Below are positions 4,980-49,699 of a stretch of DNA of 53,511 nucleotides, one piece after another. The stretch covers positions 1 through 53,511 of the forward strand of contig JAHJTX010000324.1 in the NCBI GenBank assembly GCA_018829545.1, in the 5' to 3' direction. Within the stretch, counting starts at the first letter, position 1. Each line of letters begins with the position of its first letter. Made by a program: the position numbers and the translations under genes. This DNA comes from Bacteroidota bacterium. GTDB taxonomy: Bacteria > Bacteroidota > Ignavibacteria > Ignavibacteriales > Melioribacteraceae. Below the pieces are notes generated by a model. It ran no database searches. It worked only from the letters and a program-made list of their open reading frames with translations, and had not been told where the DNA came from.

Positions 4980-5038
4980 GGGCTGTAGAAGTATGATTAA
5001 GAATAATAAAAGGATTATTACTAGGATTATTTATTGAC

Positions 5039-5068
5039 TTGACAATTTGTTAATAACTTGAGTAACTT
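5039..5068 (+). promoter_or_regulatory. Predicted porU promoter, shared with the 48890 operon
   Basis: TTGACA (5039-5044) precedes TAACTT (5063-5068) with an 18-base spacer. The wider blocks ACTTGACAAT and TAACTTTT are identical before the lipoprotein gene at 48890 (17-base spacer there). The -10 match to consensus is weak; the conservation is the main support. Confidence 0.5.
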
Positions 5069-5149
5069 TTAGCCCAAAAATGAGGAAAATATTTATAGAG
5101 AAAAACTGCTACGATTTTTGCATTGTTTTTAGTGAAATATTATCGCCAT
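5069..5149 (+). promoter_or_regulatory. Conserved leader shared by the two T9SS operons
   Basis: After TAACTTTT both leaders carry GCC, an A-rich stretch with GAGGAA/AAGGAA, GAGAAA-(2 nt)-YTGCTAC (5098-5112 here, 48744-48756 there), then TGTTTTTA and ATATTA. The order is conserved but the spacing is not. It may be an untranslated regulatory leader or part of an extended promoter. Confidence 0.4.
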
Positions 5150-5190
5150 ATTTGTACTAAATGGCATATATTAGAATATTTGAGGTAAAA

Positions 5191-8100
5191 GTGAAAATCA
5201 AATTCTCTATAATAAGTTTTCTATTTCTATTCGTATCAATACTCGCGTCCGGCGATTTACGAGTGTTATCATCAAACTCGGCTTCAATAACAATTGAATT
5301 CAAACCGCAAAATCTGGATTCTACCGTTATAATTATTCAGAATCAGAAGCATTATCAATTACATTTTAATAATGCGTTAACCTCATCACTCAACAGCGAT
5401 GGTGAAATTCCTTTCAGGAAAATTTCACTAGGAGTTCCATTAGAGACTGGGAACACAATTCAAATTATTGGTTCGGAGTATTCATTCATCGATGGAAAAT
5501 TAACTGCATCAAAAGCACAAAGCAGCAGTTTTAATGTTGATGAATTTCCGGAACATGAATTAGTGGAATTTGCCGAGTTCGGAATTTCGAGGGAATTAAG
5601 ATTGCAGTCTTTCAATATTTATCCCGTTCATTACAATAAAGAAACGAACAGAATTAAGTTCTATAAAAGCATTGTCTTTAGAGTAAATTATGGCGCCAAC
5701 AAAGGTGGTAAATTAATCAAAGATAAATTCGCGTTGAAAAATATACTAAACGCAGAAGCTGCAAAAAATTGGGGAACGGAAGTTAACTCATTACAAAAAG
5801 TTACAAATTCAGTTCTCTCAAGCGGAACGTGGTACAAATTCGAATCTCCCGATGAGGGTATTTACAAAATACCCCGCTCTCAGCTTACTTCTCTCGGAAT
5901 TAATGCAGACAATGTAGACCCACGCTCAATCAAAATTTATAATAACGGTGGAAAAGTTTTAAATGAGAAGGTCTCCTATAATTCGCCCAACGATCTTGTT
6001 GAGATAGCGATAAAAGTTGTTGGAGAAGAAGATGGTAAATTCGATGCAGATGATTACATAATTTTTTACGGACGAGGAGTAAATTTTTGGGAGTATGAAT
6101 CAGGCTCAATCGTAAGGCGGAAGCACTATTATTCTGAAAAAAATTTTTACTGGATTACTTCCGGCGGCAATAGCGGAATCAGAATTCAGAATTATACTTC
6201 TCTTAACGATAGCGCTCCTCTTATTCAAAATTCAACAAGGGCATTCGTTTTTGAGGAAAAGAATATTATAAACATTGGTAAAACCGGAAGAGATTATTGG
6301 GGAGATGAATTTAATTCTTCAATTAAATCGAGAACTTATCTGAATTCTCTTAACGGAATAGTTCCCGGAGAAAAAATTTACTATAACTTCTTATTTGGCA
6401 ATATCTCTTCTGCCAGCATGGTTTTAACTGTAACCGAAAACGGAAGCACAATATCCACAAAGGTATTACCCGGATATGAAGATCAGCTTTACATATTGGG
6501 AAAATATATTTCAGGTTCTGCTACCGCGCAAATCACACTTCCAAATGAGCGCAGCACGTTAAAATTTGCAGTAGCTGCTTCTTCATCCGGTGATAGAGCA
6601 TATATTGATTATTACGAGATAGAATACAAAAAATTGCTAAAAGCTTTTGAAGATAAGCAAACATTTTTCTCGTTGGACACATCGGCTGTTGTTGAATACA
6701 CTCTATCTAATTTTTCAACTAGCAGTATCAATGTTTTTGATGTTACCGACAATTCAAATGTTAAAATCATTTCCGCTCCAAAGATTAGCGGCGGGCAGTG
6801 CGTTTTTCAAAAGAGCGAACTAAAAAACAATGTCTCAAAATATTTAGCCGTTACTGAATCGGTTTATAAAAGTATAACCGGAATTACCAAAGTAGAAAAT
6901 TCAAACGTCAGCGGTATTACATCTGGCGCTGAGTATGTAATTGTAACTCACAAAAAATTTAAGGAACAGGCAGAACGGTTAGCTGATTACAGGCAAAACT
7001 CTGCCCCTAAGACTTTTTCCAGCGTGATAGTTTACGTTGATGAAATTTATAATGAATTTTCCGGCGGGCTGCAAGATCCAACCGCTATTAGAAATTTTTT
7101 GAAATATGCTTATCAAAACTGGACCGTAAAACCGTTTTTTTTGATGCTCTTTGGAGACGGCACTTACGACTATTTTGATAAAGAGAAATATTCAAACAAT
7201 TATGTGCCTACGTATCAAACGCAGGAATCGCTTTGGGAATTATTCTCTTACACGATGGACGATTATTATGGAAGGATAGTCGGAGATGATTTAGCTGCGG
7301 ATTTAGCGGTTGGCAGGCTAACGGTCAACTCGACAAATGAAGCTAAATATATTGTTGATAAAATAATATTATACGAAAGCAAATCGCAGCGAGGGTTGTG
7401 GAGAAACTCTATAACCTTAGTTGCCGATGATGGTTTGACTAGTAAGGGTAATGACGGAAGTGTTCATACATTTCAAAGCGAAAGATTAGCGACTACGGTT
7501 CTTCCTGCATACTTGGACAAGAATAAACTGTATCTTTCAGCTTATCCAACTACTATTACAGGATTGGGAAGAAGAAAACCTGGCGTTAATGCTGCCATAA
7601 TTGATGCCGTAAATAATGGCACACTAATAATGAACTTTATCGGGCATGGTAATCCTGAAGTTTGGACTCACGAATTTGTATTTGAAAAAGCCGTATCAAT
7701 ACCACAGTTCAAAAATGATAAATTCTTTTTCATTACGGCGGCAACTTGCGACTTTGGGAAATATGATGACCCTGCAATCCAGAGTGCAACTGAAGAAATG
7801 CTTCTTTTGAATAATAGAGGAATGATAGGCGCATTCACTGCAGCAAGGCTTGTTACCTCGTCTCAGAATGCAGCTATTAACGAAAAGTATTACTCAATGC
7901 TTTTTAGCAAAACATTATCCACTCACGGCGGAATGACCGTCGGCGAAGCGTATTATTTAACCAAGCGCGAAAAGACACAGGACAACGACGAAAAGTTTCA
8001 TTTGTTTTCTGATCCGGCGCTGCGGTTGAATCTGCCGACACTTCCCATAAATATTGATAAAGTCAATAACACAGTTCTTACGACAAATGTTCAGTTATCT

Positions 8101-9099
8101 GCACTTGGAGAAGCAACTGTAGAAGGTTCAGTAAAAAATTCAGATGGAGCGGTTAATACAAATTTCAACGGTGAAGGCATAATTAGTGTTTTTGATTCTG
8201 AGCGAAATGTATATCTCTCAGACATCAAATATTCAATGAAGCAGCAGGGAGGAGTAATTTTTAGAGGAAGAGTATCAGTTGAAAACGGCGAATTTAGCGC
8301 TTCGTTTAGAGTGCCGAAAGATATATCCTATGATGACAAAAACGGAAAAATTGTTGCTTACCTTTTTGATGATCAGCTTGATGGAATTGGATTCACAGAG
8401 AAAATAAGAGTTGGCGGAACTGATACCACAGCAGTAAATGACGGCGAAGGTCCAACGATTGATATTTTCTTCGATGACTTTAATTTTGAGAATTCTTATC
8501 TGGTTAATCCCGATTTTAATTTGTTGGTAAAAATTACAGATGAATCCGGTTTGAATACAACCGGAACGGGGATAGGGCATAAACTTGAAGGCATCCTTGA
8601 TGACAATGAGGAAAACGCAATTGATTTTACAAATTTCTTTGTCGGCGATTTGGATGCTGGCGGAAAATCCGGCAAAATAGATTATAAATTCACAAACACA
8701 GAAACGGGCGAACACAAAATTAAAATCAAAGCGTGGGATATTTTCAACAATCAGTCGAATACAGAGAACAATTTTTCTGTTGTAACTTCATCCGGTTTAG
8801 TTGTAAGAGACGTTTATAATTATCCCAATCCTTTTCGCTCGAATACTGTTTTTACGTTTCAACACAACGTTAATTCTGCCCTCAATGTGAAAATAAAAAT
8901 TTACTCCGTTGCAGGCAGATTAATAAAGGAAATTGAAAAGTCAGATATTTTAGATAAATTTGTTAAAATAGATTGGGACGGAAGAGACGAAGACGGCTCT
9001 TCTATTGCCAATGGAACTTATTTATATAAAATTATAATTAAGTCAACAGATGGTGATTATAAAAATTCGGTGCTCGGTAAATTAGCCGTAATACGATGA
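5191..9099 (+). CDS. porU: T9SS C-terminal signal peptidase/sortase PorU (C25 family)
   Basis: PorU is the gingipain-like transpeptidase that removes the C-terminal domain of T9SS cargo and attaches it at the cell surface. The catalytic dyad is visible: His in FIGHGNPEVW (about residue 819) and Cys in ITAATCDFGK (about 853), both typical of peptidase C25. An N-terminal beta-rich region precedes the caspase-like core. A T9SS type-A domain ends the protein (from YNYPNPF near residue 1205 to LGKLAVIR). I prefer GTG 5191, because GAGGT at 5182 lies close upstream and the product begins with a clean signal peptide (MKIKFSIISF..). ATG 5161 is an alternative that adds ten residues and lacks a ribosome site. 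About 1302 residues is usual for PorU. porV follows after a short gap. Confidence 0.93.
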   Translation: MKIKFSIISFLFLFVSILASGDLRVLSSNSASITIEFKPQNLDSTVIIIQNQKHYQLHFNNALTSSLNSDGEIPFRKISLGVPLETGNTIQIIGSEYSFIDGKLTASKAQSSSFNVDEFPEHELVEFAEFGISRELRLQSFNIYPVHYNKETNRIKFYKSIVFRVNYGANKGGKLIKDKFALKNILNAEAAKNWGTEVNSLQKVTNSVLSSGTWYKFESPDEGIYKIPRSQLTSLGINADNVDPRSIKIYNNGGKVLNEKVSYNSPNDLVEIAIKVVGEEDGKFDADDYIIFYGRGVNFWEYESGSIVRRKHYYSEKNFYWITSGGNSGIRIQNYTSLNDSAPLIQNSTRAFVFEEKNIINIGKTGRDYWGDEFNSSIKSRTYLNSLNGIVPGEKIYYNFLFGNISSASMVLTVTENGSTISTKVLPGYEDQLYILGKYISGSATAQITLPNERSTLKFAVAASSSGDRAYIDYYEIEYKKLLKAFEDKQTFFSLDTSAVVEYTLSNFSTSSINVFDVTDNSNVKIISAPKISGGQCVFQKSELKNNVSKYLAVTESVYKSITGITKVENSNVSGITSGAEYVIVTHKKFKEQAERLADYRQNSAPKTFSSVIVYVDEIYNEFSGGLQDPTAIRNFLKYAYQNWTVKPFFLMLFGDGTYDYFDKEKYSNNYVPTYQTQESLWELFSYTMDDYYGRIVGDDLAADLAVGRLTVNSTNEAKYIVDKIILYESKSQRGLWRNSITLVADDGLTSKGNDGSVHTFQSERLATTVLPAYLDKNKLYLSAYPTTITGLGRRKPGVNAAIIDAVNNGTLIMNFIGHGNPEVWTHEFVFEKAVSIPQFKNDKFFFITAATCDFGKYDDPAIQSATEEMLLLNNRGMIGAFTAARLVTSSQNAAINEKYYSMLFSKTLSTHGGMTVGEAYYLTKREKTQDNDEKFHLFSDPALRLNLPTLPINIDKVNNTVLTTNVQLSALGEATVEGSVKNSDGAVNTNFNGEGIISVFDSERNVYLSDIKYSMKQQGGVIFRGRVSVENGEFSASFRVPKDISYDDKNGKIVAYLFDDQLDGIGFTEKIRVGGTDTTAVNDGEGPTIDIFFDDFNFENSYLVNPDFNLLVKITDESGLNTTGTGIGHKLEGILDDNEENAIDFTNFFVGDLDAGGKSGKIDYKFTNTETGEHKIKIKAWDIFNNQSNTENNFSVVTSSGLVVRDVYNYPNPFRSNTVFTFQHNVNSALNVKIKIYSVAGRLIKEIEKSDILDKFVKIDWDGRDEDGSSIANGTYLYKIIIKSTDGDYKNSVLGKLAVIR

Positions 9100-10331: not shown

Positions 10332-13300
10332 ATGATTAAAATAATATTTTGGTTTTCCAGCTTTTTTATTTTAATGGGCAGTTTATCTGCCCAATCTTTT
10401 GTCGGTAAATTAGCTCCGTATCAAAATCTGCGAACAGAAACTCAAACCATTGACACCATTAAAATATTAGGCGTGATGGTTGAATTTAAAGCGGATCAGG
10501 ACGATGCAACTTTTGGCGACGGTAAATTTGGTTCGATCTATACCGAGGATTACGGTAGTGATATTATTGACCCGCTTCCACACGACAGGAATTATTTTTT
10601 AAACCATTTTGAGTTTGCCGCTAACTATTACAATAAAGTTTCTAACGGCAAACAAATTGTTAAATATGAGATTCTTCCTGCAATTATAACTGTAAGTAAA
10701 ACAATGAGGGATTATTCTCCGTCCGTCGCAAATCCAAATGATCTTTCTTCAATTGCTGAATTCTGCAAAGAAGCGTGGCACCTGGCGGGCATTGAGTATC
10801 CGAATTATGATTTCAGTAAATTTAATTTGTTCGCAATACTTCATGCCGGAGTTGGACGCGATGTTAAACTTCCCGGAAGCATCGGCAACGAAAGAGATCT
10901 TCCTTCGGTTTATTTGGGTCTAAATTCGCTGAAGAATTTACTTGGGGCTAATTTCTCCGGCTTTCCTGCGGGCAATACAATTCATAAAATTCCAAACAGC
11001 ATGATACTGCCTGAAACAGAATCGAGAGAGCTTGTTGGAATTGGCGGCAAAGCATTATTGGAATTATCAATCAACGGATTAATTGCAGCGAGCATTGCTA
11101 GTTATTTGGGGCTGCCGGATTTGTTCAACACCGAAACCGGACTTAGCGCGATTGGGCGGTTCGGGTTAATGGACGGTCAATCAATATTCACATTTGGCGG
11201 TTTATTTCCTCCAGAACCTTCACCATGGGAAAAAATTTATCTCGGCTGGGAAACTCCCATCACCGTTGGTCTTGACGACTTAAAAATTAATCTCACGGCA
11301 AAAAACGCCGCTGCTATTAGTGATACGGTTATCTTAAAAATTCCTATCAACTCTAAAGAATATTTCTTGATTGAGAACAGAAGCAGAGATGCGAATAATG
11401 ACGGATGCAAAATTACTTATAAAGTAGGAAGCCAAACCATTACTCGAACTTTCAATAAGGATTACCCGAGTTTTATTTATTATGATATTGACACACTTGC
11501 CGGCGTTGTAACGGATGTTGACGAGTTTGATTGGGCAGTTCCGGGAGATGATAGAGATTTCGAATTTTCTAATTCATTTAAAGATGTTGGCATTGTAATC
11601 TGGCATATCGATGAAAATGTAATCGAACAAAATATCTTAGATAATAAAATCAACAACGATAAATTCGCATTGGGCGTTGATGTGGTTGAAGCGGATGGAA
11701 TTCAGGACATTGGCGAAGAATTCCAGACGATTTTTGGAGATATAATAATTGGCGAAGGAACAAAAGAAGATACGTGGTATAAGAGTAATCCGGCAAGATT
11801 TTATAAAAATCGATTTGACGATAATTCAAAACCGAATGCAAAATCGAATACCGGTGCGAACAGTTTAATCAATATCTCAAATTTTTCAGAAGTTGGAAAT
11901 AAAATGTCATTTGATTTATCATTCGGCAGAAACGACATTAAATTACTATCCCGCACTAAATTGCAGAATAAGTATAATTGGATAACACAGATAGAGGAAA
12001 GTTCTGAAGACATTACTTTTCTGTCATCAACCGCATCAACTGTAAGAATTAATTCAGCAATAGATGTCATTGAAACTTATCCCGTGGGGAGCAATTTTAA
12101 ACCCGCGCTTTTCAGTTTTGGCGGATATGATTATTTAATAAGCGTTAGAGATAGCGCTGTTTACCTCAATGCATTTAAGAATCACATCAGCTACAGTAAT
12201 TTTAGCAACACAGGTTCATTAATTTCAACTCCTCCCGTGCTGTATGAATCGAACGGAGAACATTATTTCATCATCGGAACGGAAAGAGGAGATATTTTAA
12301 CTTATAAAATATTCCCGCTTCCTCAGTTAGAAATAAAAATCGTAAAAACTGTTTCGCACCTTGGAGAGAGAATAGCACACTGCGCCGCATCGAATGATTT
12401 TACCGCTGTGGTTTCAGAAACAAAATATTGGGACAGCAGTTTGCTTGCGGGATTCGTTACGCTTCCATTCAATGCAAAGCAAGTCGCGCTCATTAAAAAC
12501 ATTGATGGTTCTTACACATCGGTTGTATTATTAAGTGATGCATCTTTTGCAATAATCAGTGATGGCGTTATTACTTCTCATTTTTCAATTCCATCTGTGG
12601 ATGAAATCAATCAGTTCTCGTTGAGTCCATTAGATGATACTGAAAAAACTTTCATTCTCTTCAATAGTAACAATTCTATTTTCGCGGTGAATTTAATCGG
12701 AACAATTGCGGATAATTTCCCATTTGAGAACAATGAAAGCTCAGAATATAATTTTGCTCCAGTTGCTTCAAAAGTAAATGGCGTAGTAAAATTATCATCC
12801 ATCAATGACGAGGGAGTTATTCATTTAATAAATAATCAAGCTGAATTGTCCGCGGGTTTTCCACTAACAAGCGGAGGATTTGCAACAGCGGCGCCTCTGT
12901 TCTTTTCAACAAATAATTCGACTCAATATTGTACTGTAACAAATGATAACGAGTTTTTGAGATGGCAATTCAGTTCATCGGCAAGCAAGAATATTTGGTC
13001 TGGAGATTACAAGGATTCATACAATAGCTCGCTGATAATTGCAGAGACACCTCAAACCGTAGAAAGCAATTACTTCCCTTTGTCAAAAGCGTATAATTGG
13101 CCAAACCCCGTCTATTCGGGGGAAACATATATTAGTTTCTACGTTAATGAAGATTCCGACGCAGAGGTTAATATTTATGATCTCGCTGGCGATAAAGTTT
13201 CAAAACTCAAATTAAAAGCAGTGGGCGGCTTTGATAACGAAATTCCGTGGGACATTTCAAATGTGCAAAGCGGTGTTTACCTTGCTCACTTAAATGTAAA

Positions 13301-13355
13301 AAGCAATTCAGGGAAATCTGCTTTTATAATCATCAAAATTGCCGTAATTAAATAA
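10332..13355 (+). CDS. T9SS-exported M6-like metallopeptidase homologue lacking the zinc site
   Basis: A 1007-residue secreted protein with a signal peptide (..ILMGSLSAQ), an M6 (immune inhibitor A-like) domain in about residues 30-450, a beta-rich middle, and a T9SS type-A C-terminal domain from AYNWPNPVYSG (about 918) to the end (IIIKIAVIK). The M6 context is clear: NLFAILHAGVG, YLGLPDLFNTETGLSAIGRF and GLMDGQS. Where M6 enzymes have H-E-x-x-H before LGLPDL, this protein has A-S-I-A-S (residues 253-257), so two zinc ligands and the catalytic glutamate are missing. It is probably a non-catalytic surface or scaffold protein. It lies 6 bases after porV and 15 before the HEFTH peptidase gene. 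Confidence 0.85.
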   Translation: MIKIIFWFSSFFILMGSLSAQSFVGKLAPYQNLRTETQTIDTIKILGVMVEFKADQDDATFGDGKFGSIYTEDYGSDIIDPLPHDRNYFLNHFEFAANYYNKVSNGKQIVKYEILPAIITVSKTMRDYSPSVANPNDLSSIAEFCKEAWHLAGIEYPNYDFSKFNLFAILHAGVGRDVKLPGSIGNERDLPSVYLGLNSLKNLLGANFSGFPAGNTIHKIPNSMILPETESRELVGIGGKALLELSINGLIAASIASYLGLPDLFNTETGLSAIGRFGLMDGQSIFTFGGLFPPEPSPWEKIYLGWETPITVGLDDLKINLTAKNAAAISDTVILKIPINSKEYFLIENRSRDANNDGCKITYKVGSQTITRTFNKDYPSFIYYDIDTLAGVVTDVDEFDWAVPGDDRDFEFSNSFKDVGIVIWHIDENVIEQNILDNKINNDKFALGVDVVEADGIQDIGEEFQTIFGDIIIGEGTKEDTWYKSNPARFYKNRFDDNSKPNAKSNTGANSLINISNFSEVGNKMSFDLSFGRNDIKLLSRTKLQNKYNWITQIEESSEDITFLSSTASTVRINSAIDVIETYPVGSNFKPALFSFGGYDYLISVRDSAVYLNAFKNHISYSNFSNTGSLISTPPVLYESNGEHYFIIGTERGDILTYKIFPLPQLEIKIVKTVSHLGERIAHCAASNDFTAVVSETKYWDSSLLAGFVTLPFNAKQVALIKNIDGSYTSVVLLSDASFAIISDGVITSHFSIPSVDEINQFSLSPLDDTEKTFILFNSNNSIFAVNLIGTIADNFPFENNESSEYNFAPVASKVNGVVKLSSINDEGVIHLINNQAELSAGFPLTSGGFATAAPLFFSTNNSTQYCTVTNDNEFLRWQFSSSASKNIWSGDYKDSYNSSLIIAETPQTVESNYFPLSKAYNWPNPVYSGETYISFYVNEDSDAEVNIYDLAGDKVSKLKLKAVGGFDNEIPWDISNVQSGVYLAHLNVKSNSGKSAFIIIKIAVIK

Positions 13356-48526: not shown

Positions 48527-48686
48527 TGAGAAATTACAATGACAGAAACAACAATCCTCTTGATCCCTATAAAAAAAATAGGACGTATGAGGACAAGTTT
48601 TGATATTTGTCTTCTGATATTTGGGGTTTTAATAACAGAAGAGCACATAATTACAGATCGAAGAAAATAGGTCATTTTTAAATCAC

Positions 48687-48715
48687 TTGACAATAAAATT
48701 AAGCATCACTAACTT
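48687..48715 (+). promoter_or_regulatory. Predicted promoter of the second T9SS operon
   Basis: TTGACA (48687-48692), a 17-base spacer and TAACTT (48710-48715). The flanking blocks ACTTGACAAT and TAACTTTT are identical to those before porU. Confidence 0.5.
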
Positions 48716-48775
48716 TTGCCAAAGAATAAAGGAATTTTATATCGAGAAATTGCTACAGTGAATGTTTTTAATATT
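48716..48775 (+). promoter_or_regulatory. Leader block shared with the porU operon
   Basis: It contains GCCAAA, AAGGAATTTTATAT, GAGAAATTGCTAC (48744-48756), TGTTTTTA and ATATTA in the same order as the leader at 5069-5149. Confidence 0.4.
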
Positions 48776-48814
48776 AGATAGTGGAGAGCAATTTTTTGAT
48801 ACCTTCCGGTGAAA

Positions 48815-48828
48815 ACAATTCGAATTGT
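48815..48828. promoter_or_regulatory. Perfect 14-base palindrome ACAATTCGAATTGT
   Basis: An exact inverted repeat lying 61 bases before the lipoprotein start and downstream of the predicted promoter. It has no counterpart in the porU leader. It could be an operator specific to this operon. Confidence 0.4.
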
Positions 48829-48889
48829 CCTATATCCATAGAGTATCATTTTTTAATATATATTTATTACGTAAGAAATTTCGAGTGAG

Positions 48890-49699
48890 ATGAAAAAATC
48901 GATTAGTATAATTTTAGGAATTCTTGTTTTATCCGCAGGCTGCGATTCAATTTCAGATAGTGTTATTGACAGCGGCGCGAATGAGATAAAGGTTCTATCC
49001 GTAAATGTGCCTTCAAAAATTATTTATACTGACTCAAGTACAAGCTTGACCATAAAACTTGAAGTAGAGGATAAGTCGGCTGTTAAATCAGTTTGGTGCA
49101 AAATAGTGTTTTCTGACGGTTCAATAACCGTAAACAAAAATGTTGCAATGCTCGATAACGGAGACACCGAGAGTAATGGCGATGTTTTGGAGAACGATAA
49201 TATTTTCAGCGGCAAAGTTCTAATAAGCGATGAATATCCGAGCGGCTATTATAATATTGAATTCTACATTAACGAAATCACAGGCGCCTCTGTAAAAGCT
49301 GCAGTTGCAAGGTTTGAATTCGACAATGCGCAGGATAATATCGCTCCGGTTTTGTCTGAGTTAAATATTCCTTCGCAAATTCAAAGAAATGAACGCTTTA
49401 CATTTTCAGTAAAAGCTGTTGATGAAAACGGGAGTCATGATATTAAATCTGTCTTTTACGAATTATTTACTCCAAATGGGACTCAGGTTTCCAATAGTGA
49501 AAATTTAACTGAATTTCCAATGTTCGATAATGGACTTGAGCAGCAAAACGGCGATTTGTTTGCCGGTGATAGTGTTTATTCAGTCTATTTAACTTTCCCG
49601 GGAGATGTGGAAACCGGTTCATGGCAGTTCAAATTTAGTGCAAAAGACCGCGGCGGCAAAACAAGTAATCAATTAACTCATAATCTTGACGTTCAATGA
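48890..49699 (+). CDS. Lipoprotein with two Ig-like/choice-of-anchor domains
   Basis: A 269-residue protein with a lipobox LSAGC (C18), then two related beta domains of about 110 residues. Each has a D-N-G..N-G-D..x-D-x-x-(F/Y)-S motif (MLDNGDTESNGDVLENDNIF and MFDNGLEQQNGDLFAGDSVY), similar to choice-of-anchor X or calcium-binding surface domains. It is probably anchored in the outer membrane. It heads a four-gene T9SS-type operon, and the next gene starts within its stop (ATGA). A GAGTGAG precedes the ATG. Confidence 0.8.
   Translation: MKKSISIILGILVLSAGCDSISDSVIDSGANEIKVLSVNVPSKIIYTDSSTSLTIKLEVEDKSAVKSVWCKIVFSDGSITVNKNVAMLDNGDTESNGDVLENDNIFSGKVLISDEYPSGYYNIEFYINEITGASVKAAVARFEFDNAQDNIAPVLSELNIPSQIQRNERFTFSVKAVDENGSHDIKSVFYELFTPNGTQVSNSENLTEFPMFDNGLEQQNGDLFAGDSVYSVYLTFPGDVETGSWQFKFSAKDRGGKTSNQLTHNLDVQ

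Follow-up and report, generated by a model that had tools for sequence, protein, structure and literature searches.

Genes and upstream elements in the window

The window, by which we mean the whole stretch of 53,511 nucleotides of an Ignavibacteriales contig (JAHJTX010000324.1), carries two distant operons connected with T9SS. The first opens with porU, and its third gene (10332-13355) encodes a T9SS-dependent M6-like inactivated metalloprotease (NF052323), which fits PorU and PorV. The second consists of a lipoprotein gene, a gene for a propeller-like protein, whose C-terminal PorZ match is weak and below the cut-off, and two genes for PorV/PorQ-type proteins. A first-pass annotation of this DNA had described the regions preceding both operons as copies of one promoter and leader placed before unrelated coding genes, and unrelated they are, with porU at one site and the lipoprotein/propeller-like/PorV-PorQ-type operon at the other. 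The genes and promoters in question are the following:

5037..5070, + strand: porU promoter, with ACTTGACAAT in the -33 region (5037-5046) and TAACTTTT as the -7 box (5063-5070); conserved before porU orthologs as ACTTGACA-N18-TAAATTTG
5191..9099, + strand: porU, T9SS sortase (NF033707 equivalog, E 8.5e-296; start placed by the ortholog starts)
48685..48717, + strand: promoter of the lipoprotein operon, with ACTTGACAAT (48685-48694) and TAACTTTT (48710-48717); conserved in the window's family
48890..49699, + strand: lipoprotein gene, gene 1 of the second operon; no known family, adjoins the propeller gene in relatives too

The start of porU is likely the GTG at 5191 (MKIKFSII, with MKSKFSII in the orthologs) and not the ATG at 5161. 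Since orthologs put the start at this GTG, an annotation from the first ATG would lengthen the protein by ten residues (window 5161-5190).

Both promoter boxes are present at both sites, separated by 16 bases before porU and 15 bases before the lipoprotein operon, exactly as the annotation had it. Together, promoter and leader blocks span 5037-5112 (site A, porU) and 48685-48756 (site B, lipoprotein operon). Depending on which of two scoring schemes is used, the gapped alignment of the two sites reaches 37.0 (shuffle mean 19.0, z = 6.1) or 35.5 (shuffle mean 16.9, z = 6.5), and the best match of site A within the window, on both strands, is site B. The pattern GAGAAA..TGCTAC has exactly two occurrences in the window (5098-5112 and 48744-48756), where chance would give 0.02. 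Because this pair was chosen among many intergenic regions, its similarity alone is only suggestive; conservation in relatives, described below, settles that it is real, and the likeness claimed for the two regions is therefore genuine, at about 6 standard deviations over shuffles. An exact promoter pattern was also tried as a signature and rejected, as its four matches in the genome did not exceed those of the reversed control and included two unrelated ones outside the window.

Conservation among relatives

Orthologs of porU and of the lipoprotein-adjacent propeller gene were collected from 38 genomes in three families of the order. Among about 30 relatives from these three families of Ignavibacteriales, most have the element upstream of porU, with few porU genes lacking it, and in the window's own family (f1) it also lies upstream of the lipoprotein operon; in families f2 and f3 the lipoprotein gene closely follows an upstream protease gene, without the element. 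The consensus reads ACTTGACA, 18 bases, TAAATTTG, about 11 bases, AAGGA, about 5 bases, TATAGAGA, 1-3 bases, TTTGCTAC. Among the leader blocks, AAGGA, TATAGAG and TGCTAC are kept in relatives; TGTTTTTA and ATATTA are not, and both sit inside the loop of the hairpin described below and vary among genomes. When 294 genomes of the class were scanned with a model of the element at E <= 0.001, matches were found in 33 of the 34 sampled f1 genomes (in G017 solely at the RNA of a small gene) and in most f2 and f3 genomes. Family f13, of the same class and outside the order, has the element before porU as well, with the same HD-domain neighbour.

The spacings between the modules vary by up to about 10 bases, as is expected for an RNA and not for a rigid operator. 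A DNA-level operator bound by a transcription factor just past the promoter would agree with the fixed order and orientation of the modules directly behind the promoter, but their variable spacing, the lack of a palindrome in the motif and its coevolution with a strand 15-100 bases away make such an operator highly improbable.

Target specificity of the leader

The genome scans scored a limited number of candidates per genome and may thus have missed weaker sites. In 164 genomes, two unbiased pattern scans produced 48 matches, 34 of them outside coding regions; 31 of these noncoding matches lie before porU, the lipoprotein operon or sprA, two before one other small gene, and one is a stray. 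The exact leader-core pattern, TATAGAGAN{1,3}TTGCTAC, found 19 sites in the 164 genomes (2 for the reversed control), of which 6 precede porU, 11 the lipoprotein operon and 1 the small gene; the last falls in a coding region. With a looser pattern the same genomes yielded 29 matches, compared with 17 for its control; 13 fall within reading frames, and of the 16 outside, 12 precede sprA, 2 porU and 1 the small gene, with 1 elsewhere. In 21 genomes, a sequence model (R1) returned porU and the lipoprotein operon as its strong matches, and its next tier includes three sites directly before sprA/sov (TIGR04189). The annotation had suggested a wider T9SS regulon, to be sought in the genome and its relatives, and these scans bear the prediction out for porU, the lipoprotein operon and sprA, before which the matches concentrate. 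In the window's own genome, strong scores are confined to the two window copies, and the sprA copy is degenerate (GGAGGTTTATCGAATAATTTCTACT at G000:C126, L163), with weak predicted arm pairing of -13.4 kcal/mol.

Promoter-only matches of R1 sit before housekeeping genes, such as, to judge by the translations, sufB, lexA, uppS and trpE. For this reason, the promoter half is read from its sequence as an ordinary Bacteroidota sigma-A promoter; its boxes are of that type (TTG and TAnnTTTG, at conserved spacing, consensus ACTTGACA-N18-TAAATTTG). The proposal of a shared promoter with a transcribed regulatory leader is accordingly to be split: the specific part is the transcribed strand, which pairs in cis with a second strand, and the promoter half is ordinary. 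The same matches before housekeeping genes would favour a chance likeness of two AT-rich leaders, or merely an ordinary strong promoter, and this is valid for the promoter half; as an account of the leader it is refuted by ortholog conservation, target specificity and arm coevolution, and we give it practically no weight.

A predicted long hairpin with coevolving arms

The conserved leader strand, AAGGA..TATAGAGAATTTTGCTAC, is predicted to form arm 1 of a long RNA hairpin, and arm 2 is its downstream reverse complement. In f13 sequences the leader strand is followed by its own reverse complement (CTATATAGATTTCTTTAC .. GTAAAGAAATCTATATAG), and the same layout was next found in f1. The loop between the arms measures about 15-100 bases. 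Arm 2 of porU leaders begins within a few bases of the start codon (ATGAAAAGCAAATTCTCTATAAT) and covers roughly codons 2-10; that of the lipoprotein operon lies in the untranslated leader, 15-48 bases past arm 1. The corresponding features of the window are:

5082..5086, + strand: GAGGA (AAGGA box), outer part of arm 1 of the porU leader; its inclusion raises own-versus-swapped pairing over all porU leaders
5094..5112, + strand: arm 1 of the porU leader, TATAGAGAAAAACTGCTAC (arm-pairing analysis)
5200..5213, + strand: arm 2 of the porU leader, AAATTCTCTATAAT, over porU codons 4-8 (arm-pairing analysis)
48729..48733, + strand: AAGGA box of the lipoprotein leader, outer part of arm 1; pairs with TTCC behind arm 2
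48740..48756, + strand: arm 1 of the lipoprotein-operon leader, TATCGAGAAATTGCTAC (arm-pairing analysis)
48786..48802, + strand: arm 2 of the lipoprotein-operon leader, GAGCAATTTTTTGATAC (15 pairs, -17.4 kcal/mol)
48781..48888, + strand: possible upstream open reading frame of 35 codons with a GTG start, enclosing arm 2; sequence not conserved, a candidate only

The candidate 35-codon frame stops one base short of the lipoprotein ATG. The porU hairpin of the window is among the weaker of the set, with 9-10 contiguous pairs and a predicted mean pairing probability of arm 2 of about 0.66 at 37 C.

Pairing was evaluated by a non-circular test in which arm 1 of each genome was paired with its own downstream stretch or with that of another genome, with folding energies computed under 37 C parameters and standard salt. 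For porU (n=52), own pairs average -14.48 and swapped pairs -10.18 kcal/mol (sd 0.37; 0/5000 permutations); for the lipoprotein operon (n=23), the values are -14.49 and -11.25 kcal/mol (sd 0.51; 0/5000). When arm 2 of porU is picked solely from the predicted start codon, the difference persists (-15.28 vs -10.40; 0/5000), and with a reversed arm 1 as control the effect is abolished. Inclusion of the AAGGA box strengthens the pairing (porU -23.4 vs -17.1, lipoprotein -22.8 vs -18.1 kcal/mol, own vs swapped), since the box pairs with TTCC/TCTCC behind arm 2, as in L183, where GGAAAAATTATAGAGAATTTGCT faces AGCAGACTCTCTATAATTTTTCC. In sprA leaders the pairing of the core element only is not significant (309/5000); with the AAGGA box it reaches -17.08 vs -15.18 (0/5000), weaker than at porU and the lipoprotein operon, and the position of arm 2 is less uniform. 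A fixed-register count in a start-anchored alignment yielded 33 double-change cells compared with 22.5 in shuffles (0/500), and this alignment is 73% paired, as against 36-61% when slid. Permutations and pair counts thus reveal both conserved pairing and compensatory changes, as in a structured RNA.

Consensus folding of the 92-base element alone returned no base pairs, as the aligned stretch did not reach arm 2. Apart from the long hairpin, the leaders showed no complex conserved fold, and no known aptamer or amino-acid-rich leader peptide was recognised in them. A search of the whole window against Rfam at the gathering score returned nothing but a tRNA, and neither leader had a match up to E 1. 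Pairing between loci, of porU with the lipoprotein leader, was considered and rejected, as no same-genome preference appeared.

An arm 1 that starts near the inferred 5' end could also belong to a hairpin that stabilises the mRNA end or acts as a simple RNA thermometer. Predicted pairing of arm 2 is nearly flat from 15 to 65 C (porU 0.89 to 0.78, lipoprotein 0.92 to 0.83), so that thermometer melting is unlikely, and for a stabiliser a second strand at the porU start codon would be needless; we consider this explanation improbable.

Terminators and attenuator-like relatives

In two other lineages an intrinsic terminator stands behind the arms, namely before porU in f13 and before a gene of 82 amino acids in f3. 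In the f13 porU leaders (L272, L273, L274, L275, L276, L277), arms and terminator lie directly before the porU ATG; these leaders also have an in-frame upstream start, and arm 2 together with the terminator encodes the conserved peptide KGIYIGLPSVY..INSRFF. The window's own leaders show no comparable terminator and no excess of T after the stem, and the hairpin as a plain U-tract terminator was rejected, as no T excess directly follows it.

The f3 RNA (L119, L120, L121, L122, L123, L124, L125; for example L121:1842-1956:-) is conserved, belongs to no Rfam family and precedes the 82-amino-acid gene, a gene for a DUF3098 membrane protein and dprA. Its arms are ATTTGCTACT/AGTAGCAAAT and its terminator CCGATTTAGGGAA..TCGGTTTTTT, with a possible antiterminator ACCAGAG/CTCTGGT; arm 2 has an alternative partner in the terminator, which is the classic attenuator layout. 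Arms and terminator are nearly invariant in this family. In L205 and L227 the small gene has a second similar leader past the terminator, with TTTGATACT replacing TTTGCTACT (GGAGAATGTATAGAGAATAGTTTGATACT). The 82-amino-acid protein as a dedicated T9SS regulator was dismissed, since it is a multi-copy protein in this order that in most genomes lacks the element. The f3 RNA carrying GAGTAGCAAAT as a trans-acting sRNA was likewise rejected: a model of it (R2) finds it only in f3 and in G017, so it looks like an independent attenuator.

Proposed mechanism

A common promoter and leader stands almost exclusively before porU, the lipoprotein/PorZ-like operon and sprA, and the two arms of the leader coevolve. 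Judged from sequence, a previously undescribed regulatory RNA seems to control T9SS genes across a bacterial order. We favour, with somewhat better than even confidence, a new cis-regulatory RNA leader that gates T9SS outer-membrane genes by sequestration of the start region or by attenuation. A sigma-A-type promoter would be joined to the leader, whose first 40 or so transcribed bases (AAGGA..TATAGAGAATTTTGCTAC) would act as arm 1 and pair with arm 2 downstream, closing the hairpin. The closed hairpin is assumed to keep expression down. At porU it would block ribosome entry, and in lineages with a terminator after arm 2 it would cause early termination; it may be opened by a signal, by a factor or by the ribosome as it initiates.

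Pairing in cis alone leaves the common arm 1 sequence at separate loci unexplained. Alternatively, a trans-acting factor, either an RNA-binding protein or a small RNA, may co-ordinate T9SS genes by binding arm 1 in competition with the hairpin. Such a factor would account for the arm 1 sequence common to porU, the lipoprotein operon, sprA and the f3 small gene, and the ability of f3 arm 2 to pair with either arm 1 or the terminator (ACCAGAG/CTCTGGT) fits capture of arm 1. Arm 1 nevertheless changes at single loci when arm 2 compensates, and within a genome there is no coevolution between the porU and lipoprotein arms (p 0.46 and 0.77). The f3 RNA, the one candidate considered for an sRNA complementary to the shared leader, is missing in the window's genome and in almost the whole of f1. 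We therefore regard a trans-acting factor as unlikely. Of the co-ordination of T9SS modules supposed in the first-pass annotation, the common element is supported; a single trans factor finds no support in the arms, which coevolve within each leader rather than from one operon to the other.

A bolder extension of the cis-acting leader, which we offer as doubtful speculation, is a new class of RNA switch common to the sortase, translocon and attachment operons of Ignavibacteria T9SS. By sensing either a common ligand or protein or the state of the secretion machinery, it would switch these genes on jointly, with no dedicated sigma factor.

Comparison with known systems

T9SS regulation has been studied in Bacteroidia, where the known co-ordinator is an ECF sigma factor (PMC4800418, PMC9723704). 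T9SS genes of Porphyromonas gingivalis belong to the PorXY-SigP regulon, SigP being the ECF sigma factor, and in Flavobacterium psychrophilum the ECF motif SM6 lies before porU and gldN (PMC4800418, PMC9723704). PorX itself did not bind the T9SS promoters tested (PMC5005315). An order outside Bacteroidia appears to use an RNA leader instead, placed before the sortase, the SprA translocon and the PorV/PorZ-like operon; searches of the open-access literature turned up no RNA leader described for T9SS genes. If this is true, the leader represents a new family of RNA whose targets are defined, and simple reporter mutants would make it possible to test how T9SS assembly is controlled in Ignavibacteria. 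It also suggests that the porU N-terminus MKSKFSII is held by RNA constraint as well as by signal-peptide function.

Like the PorXY-SigP/SM6 system, which takes in porU in F. psychrophilum, the element would co-ordinate separate T9SS loci through an upstream sequence that they have in common. It differs in its promoter, which is sigma-A-like and not of the ECF type, and in its specific part, which is a transcribed, self-pairing leader; the ECF-type -10 box (CGT in SM6) is absent at the aligned sites, where boxes of the TAnnTTT type are found instead. In boxes and spacing it matches the Bacteroidota sigma-A promoter (TTG / TAnnTTTG), for which the F. psychrophilum consensus is TAnnTTTG (PMC9723704), but that comparison covers the promoter half only and leaves the leader unexplained. 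The pairing of the leader strand, the f13 and f3 terminators after the arms and the position of arm 2 over the porU start are shared with attenuators and with 5' leaders that sequester the start codon. The element differs from these classes in having no Rfam match and in that one leader sequence is common to several secretion operons.
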